Assembly (NCBI RefSeq): GCF_000377345.1
Contig: NZ_KB898047.1
Coordinates: 1-64,000, forward strand
DNA length: 64,000 bases
Reading direction: 5' to 3'
From: Thioalkalivibrio sp. ALJ16
Lineage (GTDB): Bacteria > Pseudomonadota > Gammaproteobacteria > Ectothiorhodospirales > Ectothiorhodospiraceae
Shown: piece by piece, positions 48,650 to 55,767 of the stretch
Numbering within the stretch: the stretch's first letter is position 1
Layout of the letters: each line of letters opens with the position of its first letter
Made by a program: the position numbers and the translations under genes
The notes under the pieces: model-generated
Told to the model about the DNA's origin: nothing
Database searches by the model: none
The model's input: only the letters and a program-made list of their open reading frames with translations

Positions 48650-49537
48650 ATGAAACGTATTGCGCTGTTTCTGGCGACCAACTTCGCCATCATTATCGTC
48701 CTCAGCATCACCCTGCGCCTGCTGGGAGTGGAGCGCATCCTTGACGAGGAGGGGGTCAACCTCAACCTGAATGCGCTGCTGATATTTGCCGCGGTATTCG
48801 GCTTTGGCGGTTCCTTCATCTCGCTGGCCATCTCCAAGTGGATGGCGAAGAAGACGATGAAGGTCCACGTGATCGACAAGCCGCGCAATGCCACCGAGCA
48901 GTGGTTGCTGGAGACTGTTCAGCGCCAGGCCCGCGAGGCCGGGATTGGCATGCCGGAGGTGGGCATCTATGACTCGCCGGACCCGAACGCCTTTGCCACT
49001 GGCATGAGCAAGAACAATGCGCTGGTCGCGGTCAGTACCGGGCTGATGCAGAACATGGGGCAGGGCGAGGTCGAGGCCGTGCTGGGCCACGAGGTCGGGC
49101 ACGTGGCCAACGGCGACATGGTCACGCTGGCCCTGATCCAGGGGGTGGTGAACACCTTCGTGATCTTCCTGGCCCGCGTGGCTGGCCACTTCGTCGACCG
49201 CGTGGTGTTCAAGAACGAGTCCGGTCATGGCCCGGCGTTCTGGATCACGACCATCGTCACTGAGATCATCCTGGCGATCCTGGCCTCGATCATCGTGATG
49301 TGGTTCTCGCGCCAGCGCGAGTTCCGCGCCGACGAGGCAGGGGCGAAACTGGCCGGGCGCGAAAAGATGATCGGTGCGCTGGAGTCGCTGGCGCGCGCTT
49401 CGGGGCGCCAGGTGGACATGCCCGATCAGATGGCGGCCTTCGGCATCCGCGGGGGCATGGCCCAGGGGCTGAAGAAGCTGTTCATGAGCCACCCGCCGAT
49501 CGAGCAGCGCATCGCGTCGTTGCGCGCCAATGGCTGA
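48650..49537 (+). CDS. htpX: Membrane zinc protease HtpX
   Basis: HtpX is an M48 metalloprotease of the inner membrane that degrades misfolded membrane proteins alongside FtsH. The 295-residue protein has membrane helices at about 5-25 and 40-60, the zinc motif HEVGH (147-151), two more helices at about 160-175 and 190-215, and the third ligand in [14 protein letters not shown]. The tail [15 protein letters not shown] is conserved. The GAAGG near 48640 serves as Shine-Dalgarno. Confidence 0.96.
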
Positions 49538-49576
49538 TCGTATCGGCTGATTCGTAACGGCGAGTCAGGCAGGAGA

Positions 49577-49607
49577 ATAAAAGGCCGCCCTCAGGGCGGC
49601 CTTTATC
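49577..49607 (+). terminator. Intrinsic terminator of htpX
   Basis: The stem aaaggccgccc-tca-gggcggccttt is followed by atcgtttt, 40 bases after the htpX stop. The flanking A and T runs allow it to work for the converging gene as well. Confidence 0.87.
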
Positions 49608-49666
49608 GTTTTGCAGCGGCGTGCATCGCAGAAAGCGGTCAGCATCGCGACACGCAACGGGACTCT

Positions 49667-50347
49667 CTAATAGAAGCGACCGCGTCCGGCCGGACCGCCG
49701 AGGGCGAGGGCCGCATCCCCGACAAACGGGTTGCAGCGGCGCTCCTCCCCGAAGGTCGATTCCGGCCCGTGGCCGGGGACGAAGCGCGTGTCGTCCCCCA
49801 GCGGCCAGAGTTTGCCCGTGATGGACTCGAGCAGCTCACGGCCATTGCCGCGGGGGAAATCGCTGCGGCCGATGGCGCCATGAAAGAGGACATCGCCGAC
49901 CAGGGCCAGACGGCTTTCGGGGTCGTGGAATACCACATGGCCCGGGGTATGGCCCGGGCAGTGCAGCACCTGCAGGGTGACCTCGCCGAGTGCGATGCGG
50001 TCACCATCCTCCAGCCACTGGTCGGGCGTCAGGGGCGCGATCTCGGAAACCCCGAAGACCCGCGCCTGGTCCGGCAGCTGGTCCAGCCAGAAGGCGTCGT
50101 CGCGATGGGGCCCGATCACTGGCAGGCCCGCATCTCGGGCCAGTTCGGCGGAGGCGCCGACGTGGTCCAGGTGGCCGTGGGTCAGCAGGATTTTTTCCAG
50201 GCGCACGCCGTGGTCCCGGGCGATCTGTGCCAGGTCCGCGGCATCCGCACCGGGGTCGACCCACGCGCCGGTCCCGGTGACGTCGCACCAGATCAGGGTG
50301 GCGTTCTGTGCCAGGGGGGTGACGGGGTGGCTGAGGTGGCGAAGCAT
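49667..50347 (-). CDS. MBL-fold metallo-hydrolase (glyoxalase II-like, YcbL type)
   Basis: A 226-residue zinc hydrolase. The metal motif is THGHLDHVG, with further ligands in [27 protein letters not shown] and [13 protein letters not shown]. The GRSDFPRGN segment and the lack of the C-terminal glutathione-binding helix point to YcbL-like type II glyoxalases. The natural substrate is uncertain. The start at 50347 follows the convergent htpX terminator region by orientation. Confidence 0.88.
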
Positions 50348-50511
50348 GGCGGCGGATCCGTGAATGAATTCGAGTTTTCGGGGCGGCCCGAACGATCGTG
50401 TCGGGACCGGGGAATAGATTGGTTGCAGGCGCGTCTATTCGGGTATGTAGGTCTTCAAGGGTACGTGATATGACGGAACGGTGAACTTGTGACCCCCTGC
50501 GCATTCACCGG

Positions 50512-50540
50512 TTGACAAGAACATCGTCATATTAGAAGAT
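50512..50540 (+). promoter_or_regulatory. Promoter candidate for the small RNA
   Basis: A perfect -35 hexamer TTGACA (50512-50517) is followed 17 bases later by a weak -10, GAAGAT (50535-50540), 3 of 6 matches. The predicted start near 50547 falls just before the first hairpin of the candidate RNA. An inverted repeat, ggtgaa (50480-50485) and ttcacc (50504-50509), abuts the -35 and could be an operator. Confidence 0.45.
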
Positions 50541-50546
50541 TTGCAT

Positions 50547-50641
50547 ACGCTAATTGCTGTCCCCCCTGTCAGTAATTAGTGGACTCCTCCATCCTCCTTT
50601 GGTGGTTTTCTTGGCGCGGGCCTCGTCCCGCGCTTTTTTTT
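50547..50641 (+). ncRNA. Candidate small regulatory RNA with anti-Shine-Dalgarno motifs
   Basis: The gap 50348-50754 has no gene but is organised like a small RNA. A 10 bp hairpin, ctaattgctg (50550-50559) with cagtaattag (50570-50579), has a C-rich loop, tcccccctgt. A single-stranded stretch follows (50583-50600) containing ctcctcc and atcctcct, complementary to Shine-Dalgarno sequences. It ends with a strong intrinsic terminator at 50614-50641. No start codon and no frame of useful size lie in it. No match to a named family is claimed. Confidence 0.6.
50614..50641 (+). terminator. Intrinsic terminator of the candidate small RNA
   Basis: The stem gcgcggg (50614-50620) and cccgcgc (50627-50633) with loop cctcgt is followed by eight T residues. 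No protein-coding gene on the plus strand precedes it within 1 kb, which is why a non-coding transcript is inferred. Confidence 0.88.
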
Positions 50642-50754
50642 GCCTGTAATTCGCCTCCCGGCGCCGGGCATGTCTACCATGGACCCTGCCCGGGCCGCTG
50701 TGCCCGGTGGCACGCGTATCCATTCATCCCTGTTTCCCTAGCCGATAGCCTTCC

Positions 50755-52251
50755 ATGACCCGACGCCTGAACAGTCTGCGTACCGCGGTGTTGTCCTTCG
50801 TGCTGCTGCCACTGTTGCTGCTGATGGCCGCCGTGGTGGCACTCGGACTGCATGAATTCCAGACGCAGATGGAGAATCGCATGCAGGAAGACATCGAGCT
50901 GGTCGCACGTTCGATTCGCCTGCCGGTGGCCAGCGGGATGCTGCAGGACGATGCCGCGGCGGTGCAACAGTCTCTGGATTCGCTGTTCCAGATCGAGGAG
51001 GTATTCGGGGTCTATGTCTACGATGCCGAAGGGCGCATGGTGGCGGCCAGTGGCCCACCAAGTCCGACCCTGCAGCGACGCGGGGAGGCGCGGGTCATCA
51101 GCGAGACCGGGAGTCTCGGGGCCTTCGGCGAGCACCGGGGCCGCGAGACCTTCTCCTTTTTCCTGCCGCTGTCCGATCCCGCCGGCCGTATCGTGGGGCT
51201 GCTGCAGGTCACCCGCGACGTCACCCCGTTCCGTGCCTATGTGACCCAGTTGCAGGGCCAGGGGCTGCTGTTGCTGCTGGCGGTGGCCGGCCTGTTCCTG
51301 GTGGTGGTCCTGTTCGGCTATCACCGCGCGGTGGGCCGGCACGTCTCGCGTCTGATGGCCGCCATGGGCGCGATCGGGGATGGCCAGCGCGGCCTGCGCG
51401 CGCCCGAGGACGGGCCGGCCGAGTTGCGCGGGCTGGCGGTGTCGATGAACCGCATGATGGAGCGGCGCGAGGCCTCGGAGGCCGAGCTCGAGGTGCAGCG
51501 CCGTGAACAGGTGCGTCTGGAGGAGAAGCTGCGGCATTCGGAGAAGCTGGCGGCCATCGGCCAGCTCGCCGCCGGGGTGGCGCACGAGCTGGGGACGCCC
51601 CTGGGGATTATCGCGGGGCGTGTGCAGCGCGCGATCCGGCACCTGCCGGACGGGGACCCGGCACGCAAGGAGATGCAGGCCCTGAAGACCGAACTGGAGC
51701 GGGTGGAGGTCATCGTGCGCCAGTTGCTGGACTTCGCCCGGCGCAACCCGCTGCAGCAGCGATCACTGGAGTTGGGGACGCTGGTGGCGGATCTGATCGA
51801 ACGCGTGCATTCCCGCCATTCCGAACGGGCGGTGGAGTTTTACGTGCAGGGCGAACCGCTGACCCTGGTGGCCGATCCGCTGCGTCTGGGACAAGCCCTG
51901 GAGAATCTGCTGGAGAACGCGTCCCAGGCGGCCGCGAGCATGGTGCAGGTGAGCTGGCGGGCGGTTCCGGAGGGTGTCGAACTGGTGGTGGCGGACGATG
52001 GACCCGAGGCCGGGCGCGGGATCGGAGACGAGCAGGCCGCGCGCCTGTTCGAGCCGTTCTACACCACCAAGCCGACCGGCCAGGGGACCGGGCTCGGCCT
52101 CGCGGTGGTGCAGGTGGCCCTGGAGGACCACGGGGGGCGTGTGGTGCTGGATCGTAGTGTCCCGGGTGCGACGCGGTTTGTCGTGACCCTGCCGACGGAC
52201 CCCGGGGATCTCCGGGGCGCCGGCGGTGATGGCGAGGAGGTGCCCCGATGA
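50755..52251 (+). CDS. Membrane sensor histidine kinase (NtrB/AtoS-like output)
   Basis: A 498-residue kinase. It has TM1 at about 10-31, a periplasmic domain at about 32-168 (VFGVYVYDAEGRMVAASG, a dCache/sCache-like strand pattern), TM2 at about 170-190 and HAMP at about 190-245. The dimerisation domain has the phospho-accepting His277 in GVAHELGTPLGIIAGRV. The ATPase domain has LENLLENASQAA (N box), ADDGPEAGRGI and GQGTGLGLAVVQVALEDHGG. It overlaps the response-regulator gene by 4 bases. The signal is unknown. Confidence 0.93.
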   Translation: MTRRLNSLRTAVLSFVLLPLLLLMAAVVALGLHEFQTQMENRMQEDIELVARSIRLPVASGMLQDDAAAVQQSLDSLFQIEEVFGVYVYDAEGRMVAASGPPSPTLQRRGEARVISETGSLGAFGEHRGRETFSFFLPLSDPAGRIVGLLQVTRDVTPFRAYVTQLQGQGLLLLLAVAGLFLVVVLFGYHRAVGRHVSRLMAAMGAIGDGQRGLRAPEDGPAELRGLAVSMNRMMERREASEAELEVQRREQVRLEEKLRHSEKLAAIGQLAAGVAHELGTPLGIIAGRVQRAIRHLPDGDPARKEMQALKTELERVEVIVRQLLDFARRNPLQQRSLELGTLVADLIERVHSRHSERAVEFYVQGEPLTLVADPLRLGQALENLLENASQAAASMVQVSWRAVPEGVELVVADDGPEAGRGIGDEQAARLFEPFYTTKPTGQGTGLGLAVVQVALEDHGGRVVLDRSVPGATRFVVTLPTDPGDLRGAGGDGEEVPR

Positions 52252-53660
52252 GCGGCAACACGCAGACCCGGGAGACGGTCCTGGTCGTGGAAGACGATCG
52301 CGGCCACCGCGAGCTGCTGGCGGAGGAGCTGGGCGAGGCGGGATATGCCGTGACCGCGGTGGCCAGCGCGGAGGATGCCGAACAGGTGCTGGCGCAGCAT
52401 GCCTTCAGCCTGGTCGTGAGCGATCTGCGCCTGCCGGGTGCGGACGGCTTTCAGGTGCTGGAAGCGACACGGGCGCAGGCTCCGGCACCCGGGTTCATCA
52501 TGTTGACCGGTTTCGGGACCATCGATCAGGCGGTGACGGCGCTGAAGGCCGGGGCGGACGAGTTCCTGACCAAGCCCGTGGATCTGGATCACCTGCGCCT
52601 GGCGGCCGATCGCGTCACCGAGGCCCGCCAGCTGAAGGCCGAGGTCCGTCGCTACCGGGAGGTCCTCGCGCAGGGCGACGGCTTCCATGGCATGCAGGGT
52701 TCCAGTCCGGCCATGCTGCGGCTGTTCGACCTGATTCGGCGTATCGCGGTGGCCGACGGCAGCGTGCTCATTACCGGCGAATCGGGCACCGGCAAGGAAC
52801 TGGTGGCCCGCGCGCTGCACGCGGAGAGTCCGCGCGCCGAGGGCCCCTTCGTGGCGATCAACTGCGCGGGCATCCCCGAGGCGCTGCTGGAGTCGGAACT
52901 CCTGGGGCATGTGGCCGGTGCGTTCAGTGGAGCTCGGGGCGCGCGCCGCGGTCTGTTTACCGAGGCGGACGGTGGCACCCTGTTCCTGGACGAGATCGCG
53001 GAGATGCCCACGGCGATGCAGAGCAAGCTGCTGCGGCTGTTGCAGGATGGCCGCGTGCGGCCGGTGGGGTCCAACGAGGAGATCGCCACCAATGTGCGCA
53101 TTGTGGCGGCCACGCATCAGGACCTGCAGACGCATATCGCCGAAGGGCGTTTCCGCGAGGACCTGTATTACCGCCTGGAAACCTTCCGGATCGAGATCCC
53201 GCCGCTGCGCGAGCGTGGCGAGGATGTCGAGCGCCTGGCGCTGCAGTTCCTGCGCGAACAGAGCCTGGCCCGGGGTCTTCCGGAGCGCCGCCTGAGCCCG
53301 GAGGCGCTGCGCGCCCTGCTGCGCTACCCCTTCCCCGGCAATGTGCGCGAACTGGCAAGTCTGATGGAACGCGCGGCCACGCTGGCGGCGGGCGAGGTGA
53401 TCGAGCCCCGCGACCTGCCTGAGCGGGTCTTCGAGCAGGCCGGCAACGCTCCTGCCGCCACCGGGGCGGCGGACACCGCGGATGCCCCGGTGCCGGGCGT
53501 GGCGGACGACAGCCAGTGGCCCACCCTGGAGGAGCGCGAACGCGAGTACATCCAGCGGGTTCTGGAGCACGTGGGTGGCAACAAGCAGCGGGCGGCACGG
53601 ATCCTCGGGATCGGCCGCAAAACGCTGTATCGCAAGCTCGGGGAAACCGACCCGACGTGA
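52248..53660 (+). CDS. Sigma-54-dependent response regulator (NtrC family)
   Basis: A 470-residue enhancer-binding protein. The receiver domain (1-125) has acidic D16/D17, phosphoacceptor D59 (VVSDLRLPGADG) and K109. The AAA+ domain has Walker A ITGESGTGKELVARALH (about 174-190) and the sigma-54-contacting loop near 224-229, which reads GAFSGA rather than GAFTGA, a conservative change. GTLFLDEIAEMP is Walker B. A Fis-type HTH (GGNKQRAARILGIGRKTLYRKL) ends the protein. A sigma-54 promoter lies 135 bases downstream, before a DUF4168 gene. Confidence 0.95.
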   Translation: MSGNTQTRETVLVVEDDRGHRELLAEELGEAGYAVTAVASAEDAEQVLAQHAFSLVVSDLRLPGADGFQVLEATRAQAPAPGFIMLTGFGTIDQAVTALKAGADEFLTKPVDLDHLRLAADRVTEARQLKAEVRRYREVLAQGDGFHGMQGSSPAMLRLFDLIRRIAVADGSVLITGESGTGKELVARALHAESPRAEGPFVAINCAGIPEALLESELLGHVAGAFSGARGARRGLFTEADGGTLFLDEIAEMPTAMQSKLLRLLQDGRVRPVGSNEEIATNVRIVAATHQDLQTHIAEGRFREDLYYRLETFRIEIPPLRERGEDVERLALQFLREQSLARGLPERRLSPEALRALLRYPFPGNVRELASLMERAATLAAGEVIEPRDLPERVFEQAGNAPAATGAADTADAPVPGVADDSQWPTLEEREREYIQRVLEHVGGNKQRAARILGIGRKTLYRKLGETDPT

Positions 53661-53794: not shown

Positions 53795-53812
53795 TTGGCA
53801 CGATGCCTGCTC
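53795..53812 (+). promoter_or_regulatory. Sigma-54 promoter of the DUF4168 gene
   Basis: TTGGCACGATGCCTGCTC carries GG (53797-53798) and GC (53809-53810) exactly 10 bases apart and matches TTGGCACGnnnnTTGCW except for one -12 base. The inferred start is near 53821, leaving a leader of about 139 bases. An AT-rich, bendable stretch (53765-53795) precedes it. Confidence 0.78.
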
Positions 53813-53959
53813 CTTCCCTGGGCAGCAATCGAGGTCGCCGATCCTGAACAGCGGATCGGAACCTCCACACACGGTTGCGAAGAAAACGGGCCGAACGATG
53901 GCGGGACGCGATCCCGGTCCGATTCGGAACGAACCTCAAAGGAACCAAGGAGCACAATG

Positions 53960-54472
53960 ATGAATATGCGCAAGACGATCCTCGCGATGGCCCTGACCTC
54001 CCTGTTCGCCGTTGGTGGCGCGGCCTCGGCCCAGTACGGCGGTGCCGAAGGCGGCGCTGGCGGCGGCGACATGGGCGGTGCCCAGGGCGGTCAGCCGCCG
54101 GCTCAGGAAGGCGGTGGTGCCGGTGCCCAGGGTGGCCAGCCCCCGCAGGGTGAAGCCGGCGGTGGCGCGGCCCAGGGTGGCGCCCCGATGCAGGAAGCCC
54201 CCGAGGTTGACCTGACCGAAGAAGACATCGACACCTTCGTGTCCGCCTTCGTCGCCGTGCAGGAAGTGCGCGAAGACTTCGCCGACCGCCTGCAGAATGC
54301 CGAGGACGAGACCGAGGCCCAGTCCATGCAGCAGGAAGCGCAGGACGAAATGGTCAGCGCGGTCGAAGATGCGGGCATGAGCGTCGAGGAATACAACGAA
54401 GTCGCCATGGCCCTGCAGAACGATCCCGAGCTGATGCAGGAAGTGCAGGAGCGCGCCGAAGCCCAGCTGTAA
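53960..54472 (+). CDS. Exported Gly/Gln-rich protein with DUF4168 domain
   Basis: A 170-residue secreted protein. The signal peptide [24 protein letters not shown] is followed by about 60 residues of Gly/Gln/Pro/Ala-rich low complexity with repeated GAxGGQPP units. The C-terminal 85 residues ([31 protein letters not shown]...[19 protein letters not shown]) match the DUF4168 pattern. AAGGAG is 7 bases before ATG 53960; ATG 53957 is also in frame. Control by sigma-54 and the adjacent two-component system is likely. The function is unknown; an envelope or biofilm role is only a guess. Confidence 0.82.
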
Positions 54473-54754: not shown

Positions 54755-54797
54755 TGCGCGCTTTCTGAATCGCCCCGACCTCGGAGCATCGAACATC

Positions 54798-55226
54798 ATG
54801 AGCACCATCAGCGCCAAGCCGGCCGAAGTCGAACGCGACTGGTTTCTCGTCGACGCCGACGGCAAGACCCTCGGCCGACTCGCCACGGAGATCGCACGCC
54901 GTCTGCGCGGGAAGCACAAGCCCGTGTACACGCCGCATGTCGACACCGGCGACTACATCGTCGTGATCAACGCGGAGAAGATCCGCGTCTCCGGCAACAA
55001 GGCCATGGACAAGAAGTACTTCCACCACACCGGTTACCCGGGTGGCATCAAGGAAGCCAACTTCACCCAGATGATCGAGCGTCATCCGGAGAAGGTGCTG
55101 GAGCTTGCCGTCAAGGGCATGCTGCCGCGCAACCCGCTTGGCCGGGCCATGTTCAAGAAGCTCAAGGTCTACGCCGGCACCGAACATCGGCACACGGCCC
55201 AGCAGCCGCAGCCGCTCGAAGTCTGA
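54798..55226 (+). CDS. rplM: 50S ribosomal protein L13
   Basis: A 142-residue ribosomal protein with normal family length. [56 protein letters not shown] and [10 protein letters not shown] are conserved. [32 protein letters not shown] is the L13 signature. It lies 31 bases before rpsI, the invariant operon order. Confidence 0.98.
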
Positions 55227-55693: not shown

Positions 55694-55767
55694 TGGGGGA
55701 TCGTCTAGCGGTAGGACTGCGGACTCTGACTCCGCCAACCCAGGTTCGAATCCTGGTCCCCCAGCCA
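55694..55767 (+). tRNA. glnT: tRNA-Gln (anticodon CUG)
   Basis: A complete cloverleaf: acceptor TGGGGGA (55694-55700) with TCCCCCA (55757-55763), a D arm containing AGCGGTAGGA, an anticodon stem GCGGA/TCCGC with loop CTCTGAC giving anticodon CTG, and T arm CCAGG-TTCGAAT-CCTGG. Discriminator G and an encoded CCA end it. It could be transcribed with rpsI or from its own promoter. Confidence 0.96.

Follow-up and report, generated by a model that had tools for sequence, protein, structure and literature searches.

A probable anti-Shine-Dalgarno small RNA of Thioalkalivibrio with a conserved predicted target site on a fadL-type porin mRNA

The 64,000-nucleotide stretch of DNA analysed here (the window), from the sulfur-oxidising gammaproteobacterium Thioalkalivibrio, probably encodes, at positions 50547-50641, a free-standing trans-acting small RNA (sRNA) of approximately 95 nt that belongs to the old beta/gammaproteobacterial RF02278/ncS27/S17 family, acts on Shine-Dalgarno sites and has a fadL mRNA as its target. 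Comparative evidence gives good support to the reading of the unit as an sRNA that acts by anti-Shine-Dalgarno pairing, because its conservation, the compensatory changes in its stems, its conserved promoter and terminator and its conserved predicted target all speak for it. We infer that the unit is transcribed, that fadL is repressed and that the RNA is bound by Hfq. The original prediction of a probable new sRNA stands as regards the sRNA itself, which conservation and covariation support, but the RNA is not wholly new, being a branch of the family of RF02278, ncS27 and S17.

Architecture of the transcription unit

The unit is preceded on the plus strand by the predicted -35 element, TTGACA (50512-50517), and, after a 17-nt spacer, by the -10 element GAAGAT (50535-50540), a weak match to TATAAT with a conserved ATATTA before it. 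The A at 50547, 7 nt past the -10 element, is the transcription start predicted from this promoter spacing. A simple sigma-70 consensus scan reported no promoter, owing to the poor match of GAAGAT to TATAAT; the promoter is still credible despite its weak -10 element, because the placement of TTGAC and a GAAAAT -10 element recur across copies of the sRNA. Of 157 distinct copies with the exact core and full flanks, 108 have TTGAC at the corresponding place, 62-105 nt ahead of that core, compared to 4.8% of base-shuffled upstream stretches, and 153 have a T-run after it, although these copies are related and the counts are not independent. The copies used for the promoter and neighbour counts (157 and 163, respectively) were picked by exact core. 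In the 77 copies with TTGAC and an ATATTA-like spacer, the commonest -10 element is GAAAAT at 17-nt spacing. Within these 77 copies, selected for that very spacer, ATATTA (window 50529-50540 and counterparts) is conserved nearly as well as the hexamer, and it may mark the site of a regulator or an unusual setting of the -10 element.

The 5' hairpin (50550-50579, plus strand), predicted as 10 bp with a C-rich loop, was found as such: the inverted repeat CTAATTGCTG/CAGTAATTAG (50550-50559/50570-50579) encloses the C6 loop TCCCCCCTGT, also written UCCCCCCUGU. Two CCUCC motifs follow, in ACTCCTCC (50583-50590; anti-Shine-Dalgarno motif 1, ACUCCUCC) and in TCCTCCTTT (50592-50600), the latter within a 20-nt core, CTCCATCCTCCTTTGGTGGT (50587-50606), that is predicted to form a small internal hairpin with anti-Shine-Dalgarno motif 2, UCCUCCUU, as its loop. 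Both motifs had been described as exposed, which holds for the second, located in a loop of the minimum free energy (MFE) structure, but not for the first, which is partly paired. The linker past the core reads TTTTCTTGG in the clade with the fadL site. The strong, GC-rich terminator with eight Ts is also present, at 50613-50641, as an 8-pair stem (50613-50634) and a T8 run (50634-50641). It is one of five terminator-like sites in 49500-51500, where 1.0 ± 1.0 were expected; a separate strong terminator hairpin of 11 pairs lies at 49580-49604, between an ORF that is presumably HtpX-like and the gene for a metallo-beta-lactamase-fold protein. The unit's own promoter, its intrinsic terminator with a U tail and the presence of an Hfq gene in the genome are the features of an Hfq-dependent trans-acting sRNA, the promoter being recognized by comparison rather than by the consensus scan.

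The MFE fold of 50549-50642 has an energy of -35.7 kcal/mol, against -18.6 ± 2.8 kcal/mol for 200 dinucleotide shuffles (z -6.2). Among 28 sequences of the genus, compensatory changes occur at 5 of 20 consensus pairs, two in the terminator and three in the 5' hairpin, where they affect three of the seven outer pairs of the alignment-fold model; the inner pairs of this hairpin are absent from the model, and the covariation covers the outer pairs. The internal pairing of the core is beyond judgement by covariation because its pairs are invariant in the genus. That the locus holds no RNA gene at all, and consists of a conserved terminator with a chance hairpin or of a short ORF, is scarcely tenable: a 59-codon GTG ORF does cross the unit, whose transcription is predicted, but the promoter is conserved, two stems carry compensatory changes and the core is identical among copies. 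Moreover, linker indels of 1-2 nt break any reading frame, and a small ORF over the unit was rejected on this ground.

Conservation and distribution

A similarity search of 58 genomes, including the window's own, returned matches in 39 at E 1.7e-8 or better, comprising 28 of 30 genomes of the genus, all 7 further genomes of the family and 4 of 21 from the class. The two genus genomes lacking a match (G006 and G023) are each approximately 80% complete. The core does not vary among the 39 aligned copies, drawn from several genera, while the sequence of the 5' hairpin varies freely; this identity applies to aligned copies only, because a fortieth, weaker copy (L045 in G050) with another core failed to align and was dropped. 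Core variants occur in more distant loci of the class, such as L252, L265, L267, L272 and L273. The conservation among relatives on which the original prediction had staked itself is thus evident in both genus and family, with compensatory changes in both outer stems.

A covariance model (R1) built from the 39 copies matches 130 of 369 sampled class genomes, approximately a third, of which 8 are training genomes, and 22 of 398 phylum genomes, of which 8 lie outside the class with E-values of 1e-4 or worse; these counts, and the 103 of 369 given below for RF02278, come from searches with stricter filters in which weak matches are lost. Betaproteobacteria are taken here to sit inside this class in the taxonomy used. 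R1 has one match in the window's own genome. Among the matches listed, a Thiotrichaceae MAG (L178, 5785-6024) carries three tandem core copies spaced 103-118 nt apart, and two genomes (G318 and G337) have several model matches each. Carriage by phages was considered and rejected, the 19-nt core having 0 exact matches in viral_contigs.

Genomic neighbourhood

As predicted, a two-component system follows the unit on the plus strand, with a sensor histidine kinase (HAMP, HisKA, HATPase_c; 50755-52251) starting 113 nt past the T-run and a sigma-54-dependent response regulator (52248-53660) behind it. On the other side lies the divergent metallo-beta-lactamase-fold protein gene (49667-50347, minus strand), and rplM, for ribosomal protein L13, is found approximately 4.2 kb downstream (54795-55226, plus strand), whereas it lies close downstream in other lineages. 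Between the response regulator and rplM, an ORF at 53795-54472 encodes a Gly/Gln-rich low-complexity protein that is perhaps secreted. In 10 of 20 related loci, the sRNA is followed on its own strand by a tRNA gene at a distance of approximately 1-1.4 kb, and in the window tRNA-Gln (55694-55767) comes after rplM.

Within 177 distinct loci, where a missing neighbour was often merely unread because flank lengths differ, rplM was found in 78; its start is 141-949 nt past the core, and on the strand of the core, in 76 of these, whereas the other 2 are loci of the window's genus in which rplM comes 4.1-4.6 kb downstream. Upstream, 39 of the 177 have coq7 or osmC; 33 of the 39 also have rplM downstream, and all three genes are present in 6 (Pfam confirmed COQ7 in L296 and L299, and OsmC in L298). 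This coq7/osmC - sRNA - rplM arrangement, a yardstick derived from the loci of this analysis, recurs wholly or partly in many loci of both the RF02278 and the gammaproteobacterial set; of its genes the window has kept rplM alone, separated from the sRNA by approximately 4.2 kb that include the two-component system.

Such close downstream genes raise the question of whether the hairpins and terminator form a cis-acting leader or attenuator, i.e. a 5' UTR controlling read-through into the two-component system here and into rplM elsewhere. The short distance to the kinase and the same-strand position of rplM in 76 of 78 rplM loci, and likewise in three loci passing the RF02278 cut-off, would suit such a role. 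Yet the next gene varies while core, promoter and terminator persist: where 1,200 nt or more of downstream sequence could be read, in 140 distinct loci, it is the kinase in 26, rplM in 61 and neither in 53. The single MFE fold shows no anti-terminator form, and the core is complementary, in trans, to ribosome-binding sites. A cis-acting leader is therefore considered improbable. All 26 loci with a kinase next belong to the window's genus, where the two-component system separates the sRNA from rplM; because the adjacency is seen in this genus only, the two-component system does not define the sRNA, and a leader of that system was rejected as the main reading. A leader of rplM is retained as a rival reading.

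Kinship with RF02278 and other named small RNAs

At Rfam cut-offs, a scan of the window and of 20 related loci passes tRNA alone. The best match below the cut-offs is RF02278, which aligns end to end with 50581-50641 and scores 33.2 bits against a gathering cut-off of 50 (E 5.9e-5 in 501 bases). On the 369 class genomes this model finds 103 at E ≤ 0.001, two of them above the cut-off, and 92 of the 103 are also matched by R1. The sRNA of L157 (Gallionellaceae, Betaproteobacteria) has the identical 19-nt core and scores 51.8 bits with RF02278, above the cut-off, and because it unites core and score, it joins the RF02278 set to the gammaproteobacterial set by sequence alone. Coq7, osmC and rplM are absent from the flanks read at L157, which cover approximately 370 nt downstream. 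Eight further loci (L261, L262 and L298-L303) score 54.5-73.2, all over the cut-off; their betaproteobacterial origin is presumed from that score, L157 alone having a named taxon. There, osmC lies close upstream of the sRNA in 8 of 8, coq7 is found in 5 of 8 and rplM in 3 of 8. RNase P RNA genes occur upstream of the sRNA in the three rplM-linked ones among these eight loci (L298, L300 and L301, at about 240-650).

RF02278 comprises ncS03, ncS05, ncS27 and ncS62 of Burkholderia cenocepacia and bdhR1, and shares with the window unit a double-hairpin plan and terminator as well as a CUCCUCCA..CUCC..GGUGG core; two hairpins, CU-rich anti-Shine-Dalgarno stretches and an intrinsic terminator, the structural hallmarks of the family, are all found in the window. 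Differences are also apparent. The core reads CCAUCCUCCUUUGG in the window but CCACC(C)UCCUC in L261 and L298-L303, the window unit bears an additional 5' hairpin with its C6 loop, and its genome has one match compared to three to five reported for Burkholderia genomes (PMC5688073). The gene for ncS27 is located between BCAL3348a and BCAL3349 (PMC4603805), and BCAL3348 is given among ribosomal-protein genes (PMC5688073).

The S17 RNA of Bordetella adjoins coq7, is Hfq-dependent and includes 27 nt kept throughout Betaproteobacteria; it directly represses a sigma-54 activator via a CU-rich site, as demonstrated with compensatory mutations, and its candidate targets include transporter genes (PMC11722255). 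Its S17S form is processed from a longer RNA, and overexpression of S17S leaves the exponential growth of E. coli unimpaired (PMC11722255). The likeness to S17 is drawn from description and neighbourhood, the sequence comparison having been made with the other loci, as a motif search of the text of PMC11722255 found no S17 letters; a word search of that text likewise returned no mention of gammaproteobacteria. NmsRA and NmsRB of Neisseria (NgncR_162/163; RF02877 for NmsRb) have in common with the window unit a 5' hairpin, two anti-Shine-Dalgarno motifs and a terminator, but they are two sibling RNAs with targets in the TCA cycle and amino-acid metabolism (PMC5362039; PMC13104608), and the RF02877 alignment over 50550-50639 reaches 22.5 bits against a gathering score of 52.

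Judged on sequence and gene neighbourhood, the sRNA is a gammaproteobacterial branch of the family variously named RF02278 'toxic sRNA', ncS27 and S17. We infer that the window unit, the RF02278 copies, S17 and ncS27 all descend from one sRNA, a single family being supported because the neighbourhood of coq7/osmC upstream and rplM downstream is shared. No report of a gammaproteobacterial member was found in the open-licence literature searched, in which a screen of 50 genomes, Thioalkalivibrio included, for RNA motifs may have this RNA among its candidates (PMC11109978); the core letters used as a literature query returned one unrelated mouse paper.

A conserved site on a fadL-type porin mRNA

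A complementarity search of the window's own genome gave a single match at E ≤ 1, the ribosome-binding site of a fadL-type gene encoding a FadL/OmpP1/TodX-type porin (PF03349), to which 50594-50613 of the plus strand is predicted to pair over 20 contiguous pairs, including one G-U. The E-value of 0.054 is not significant alone, so the weight of the match comes from its position and conservation. The exact 12-mer CCACCAAAGGAG occurs in this genome at the fadL ribosome-binding site and in the sRNA only. With the clade defined as the sRNAs carrying the matching linker, 16 of its fadL copies with a readable start were read, and all but one, L090, the second copy in G001, have the site. None of the 12 FadL homologues from further afield contains the 12-mer. 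The species are related and these counts are not independent events. Linker TTTTCTTGG is carried by 16 of 16 clade sRNAs, including that of G007, whose fadL start is off the contig, and by 0 of 12 other sRNAs of the genus. Left out of the fadL comparison were L102 (G003), a second G010 copy and further paralogues in G013 and G026, which lack the exact 12-mer. Two candidates compete in G001, where L090 has the better E-value and is without the site, whereas L112 has the higher identity and contains it.

In the 15 leaders with the site, the 12-mer served as anchor, and its identity there is by construction, but the 10 nt ahead of it (AACAAGAAGA) are also invariant, compared to 1 of 50 columns further up; in the first 40 of the upstream columns, the commonest base averages 70%. 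This constancy may be partly general, because the first 20 codons of fadL are also well conserved: 40 of their 60 columns do not vary, among them 10 of the 20 third positions. Co-folding the 15 leaders with the sRNA gives a mean net energy of -26.6 kcal/mol (range -16.8 to -30.2; own genome -26.5). For comparison, 200 base-shuffled leaders give -7.1 ± 3.2 (lowest -21.5), and six genes of the window lie between -0.1 and -6.9. Two of the 15 pairings (-16.8 and -21.4) do not surpass the strongest of the shuffled leaders. Seven of the 12 other genus sRNAs, those covered by this test, reach net energies of -17.5 to -20.3 kcal/mol on the window's fadL leader. When duplex energies are calculated with bulges permitted, one ordinary GC-rich leader (-36.9) equals fadL (-37.1). 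In the predicted co-fold, the 5' hairpin stays intact, as does the greater part of the terminator stem.

The broad reach of the core invites the opposite explanation, that the sRNA is a general translation damper competing for Shine-Dalgarno sites, with fadL matched only incidentally. For betaproteobacterial relatives, pairing with numerous ribosome-binding sites has been predicted, and growth is attenuated when ncS27 is overexpressed (PMC5688073); a core identical in 39 copies of several genera would also agree with such a role. However, the linker tracks the fadL site, being present in every clade sRNA and in none of the other 12, and the site itself is kept in 15 of 16 clade copies against 0 of 12 distant homologues, such that a general damper is given little credence. 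The preferred reading remains that of an sRNA with fadL as its predicted strong target. The gene after fadL, which has no Pfam match, is preceded by one of two genomic AAAGGAGGA-N2-9-ATG sites, where the reversed control pattern has one genomic match; this site would form about 12-13 pairs (net -12.1) and is kept in 11 of 15 genomes.

The 12-mer CCACCAAAGGAG has 69 exact matches in the 58 genomes, comprising 39 sRNAs, 15 fadL sites and 15 others. Several of the latter precede a start codon, but these sites are not counted as targets because the reversed control gave 53 matches in the same 58 genomes. One of them, L285 (G034:C1:2911100-2911800), lies close to a start codon with approximately 16-17 nt complementary to the G034 sRNA, linker included, while two congeners of G034 have the exact 12-mer in the sRNA only; the site may extend to 16-17 pairs and is regarded as a lead, not a target. 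On the minus strand, L280 (G004:C3:89200-89800) and L289 (G022:C25:25950-26650) each show an apparent gene end and, after it, ACCACCCCTTCCTCCTTTGGTGGTCTTTTT; this terminator-like hairpin has CCTCCTTT in its loop, as in the sRNA core, and is possibly a 3'-UTR mimic of that core.

Proposed mechanism and implications

The RNA would be transcribed from its own sigma-70-type promoter and ended at its own terminator, and its CU-rich middle, which presumably resembles the 3' end of 16S rRNA, would pair with Shine-Dalgarno regions and keep ribosomes off (a 16S tail query, GGATCACCTCCTT, had 0 matches in the window's assembly). Pairing would begin at the Shine-Dalgarno sequence with the anti-Shine-Dalgarno loop, and on fadL the linker would then zip up and block initiation, while the 5' hairpin and the bulk of the terminator stem would stay folded and Hfq would probably assist. 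The variable linker past the core would provide extra target choice; in the Thioalkalivibrio clade, it is predicted to extend pairing to 20 bp on the ribosome-binding site of the fadL/ompP1-type outer-membrane porin, with a weaker site before the next gene.

A wider interpretation, offered as speculation and with considerable doubt, is that an anti-Shine-Dalgarno RNA imitating the 16S tail has stood beside rplM since before the split of beta- and gammaproteobacteria and links the production of ribosomes to the selection of mRNAs for translation, lineages retuning it by linker edits such as that behind the 20-bp fadL duplex while the core is nearly untouchable. With the present analysis, a family whose name refers to Betaproteobacteria reaches about a third of the sampled class genomes, of which the Rfam model passes its cut-off in just 2 of 369, and the coq7/osmC - sRNA - rplM neighbourhood ties together RNAs that had been named separately. 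The analysis also offers a testable division of labour between a conserved anti-Shine-Dalgarno core and a variable linker that would choose targets, together with one strong target pair on which to examine it.
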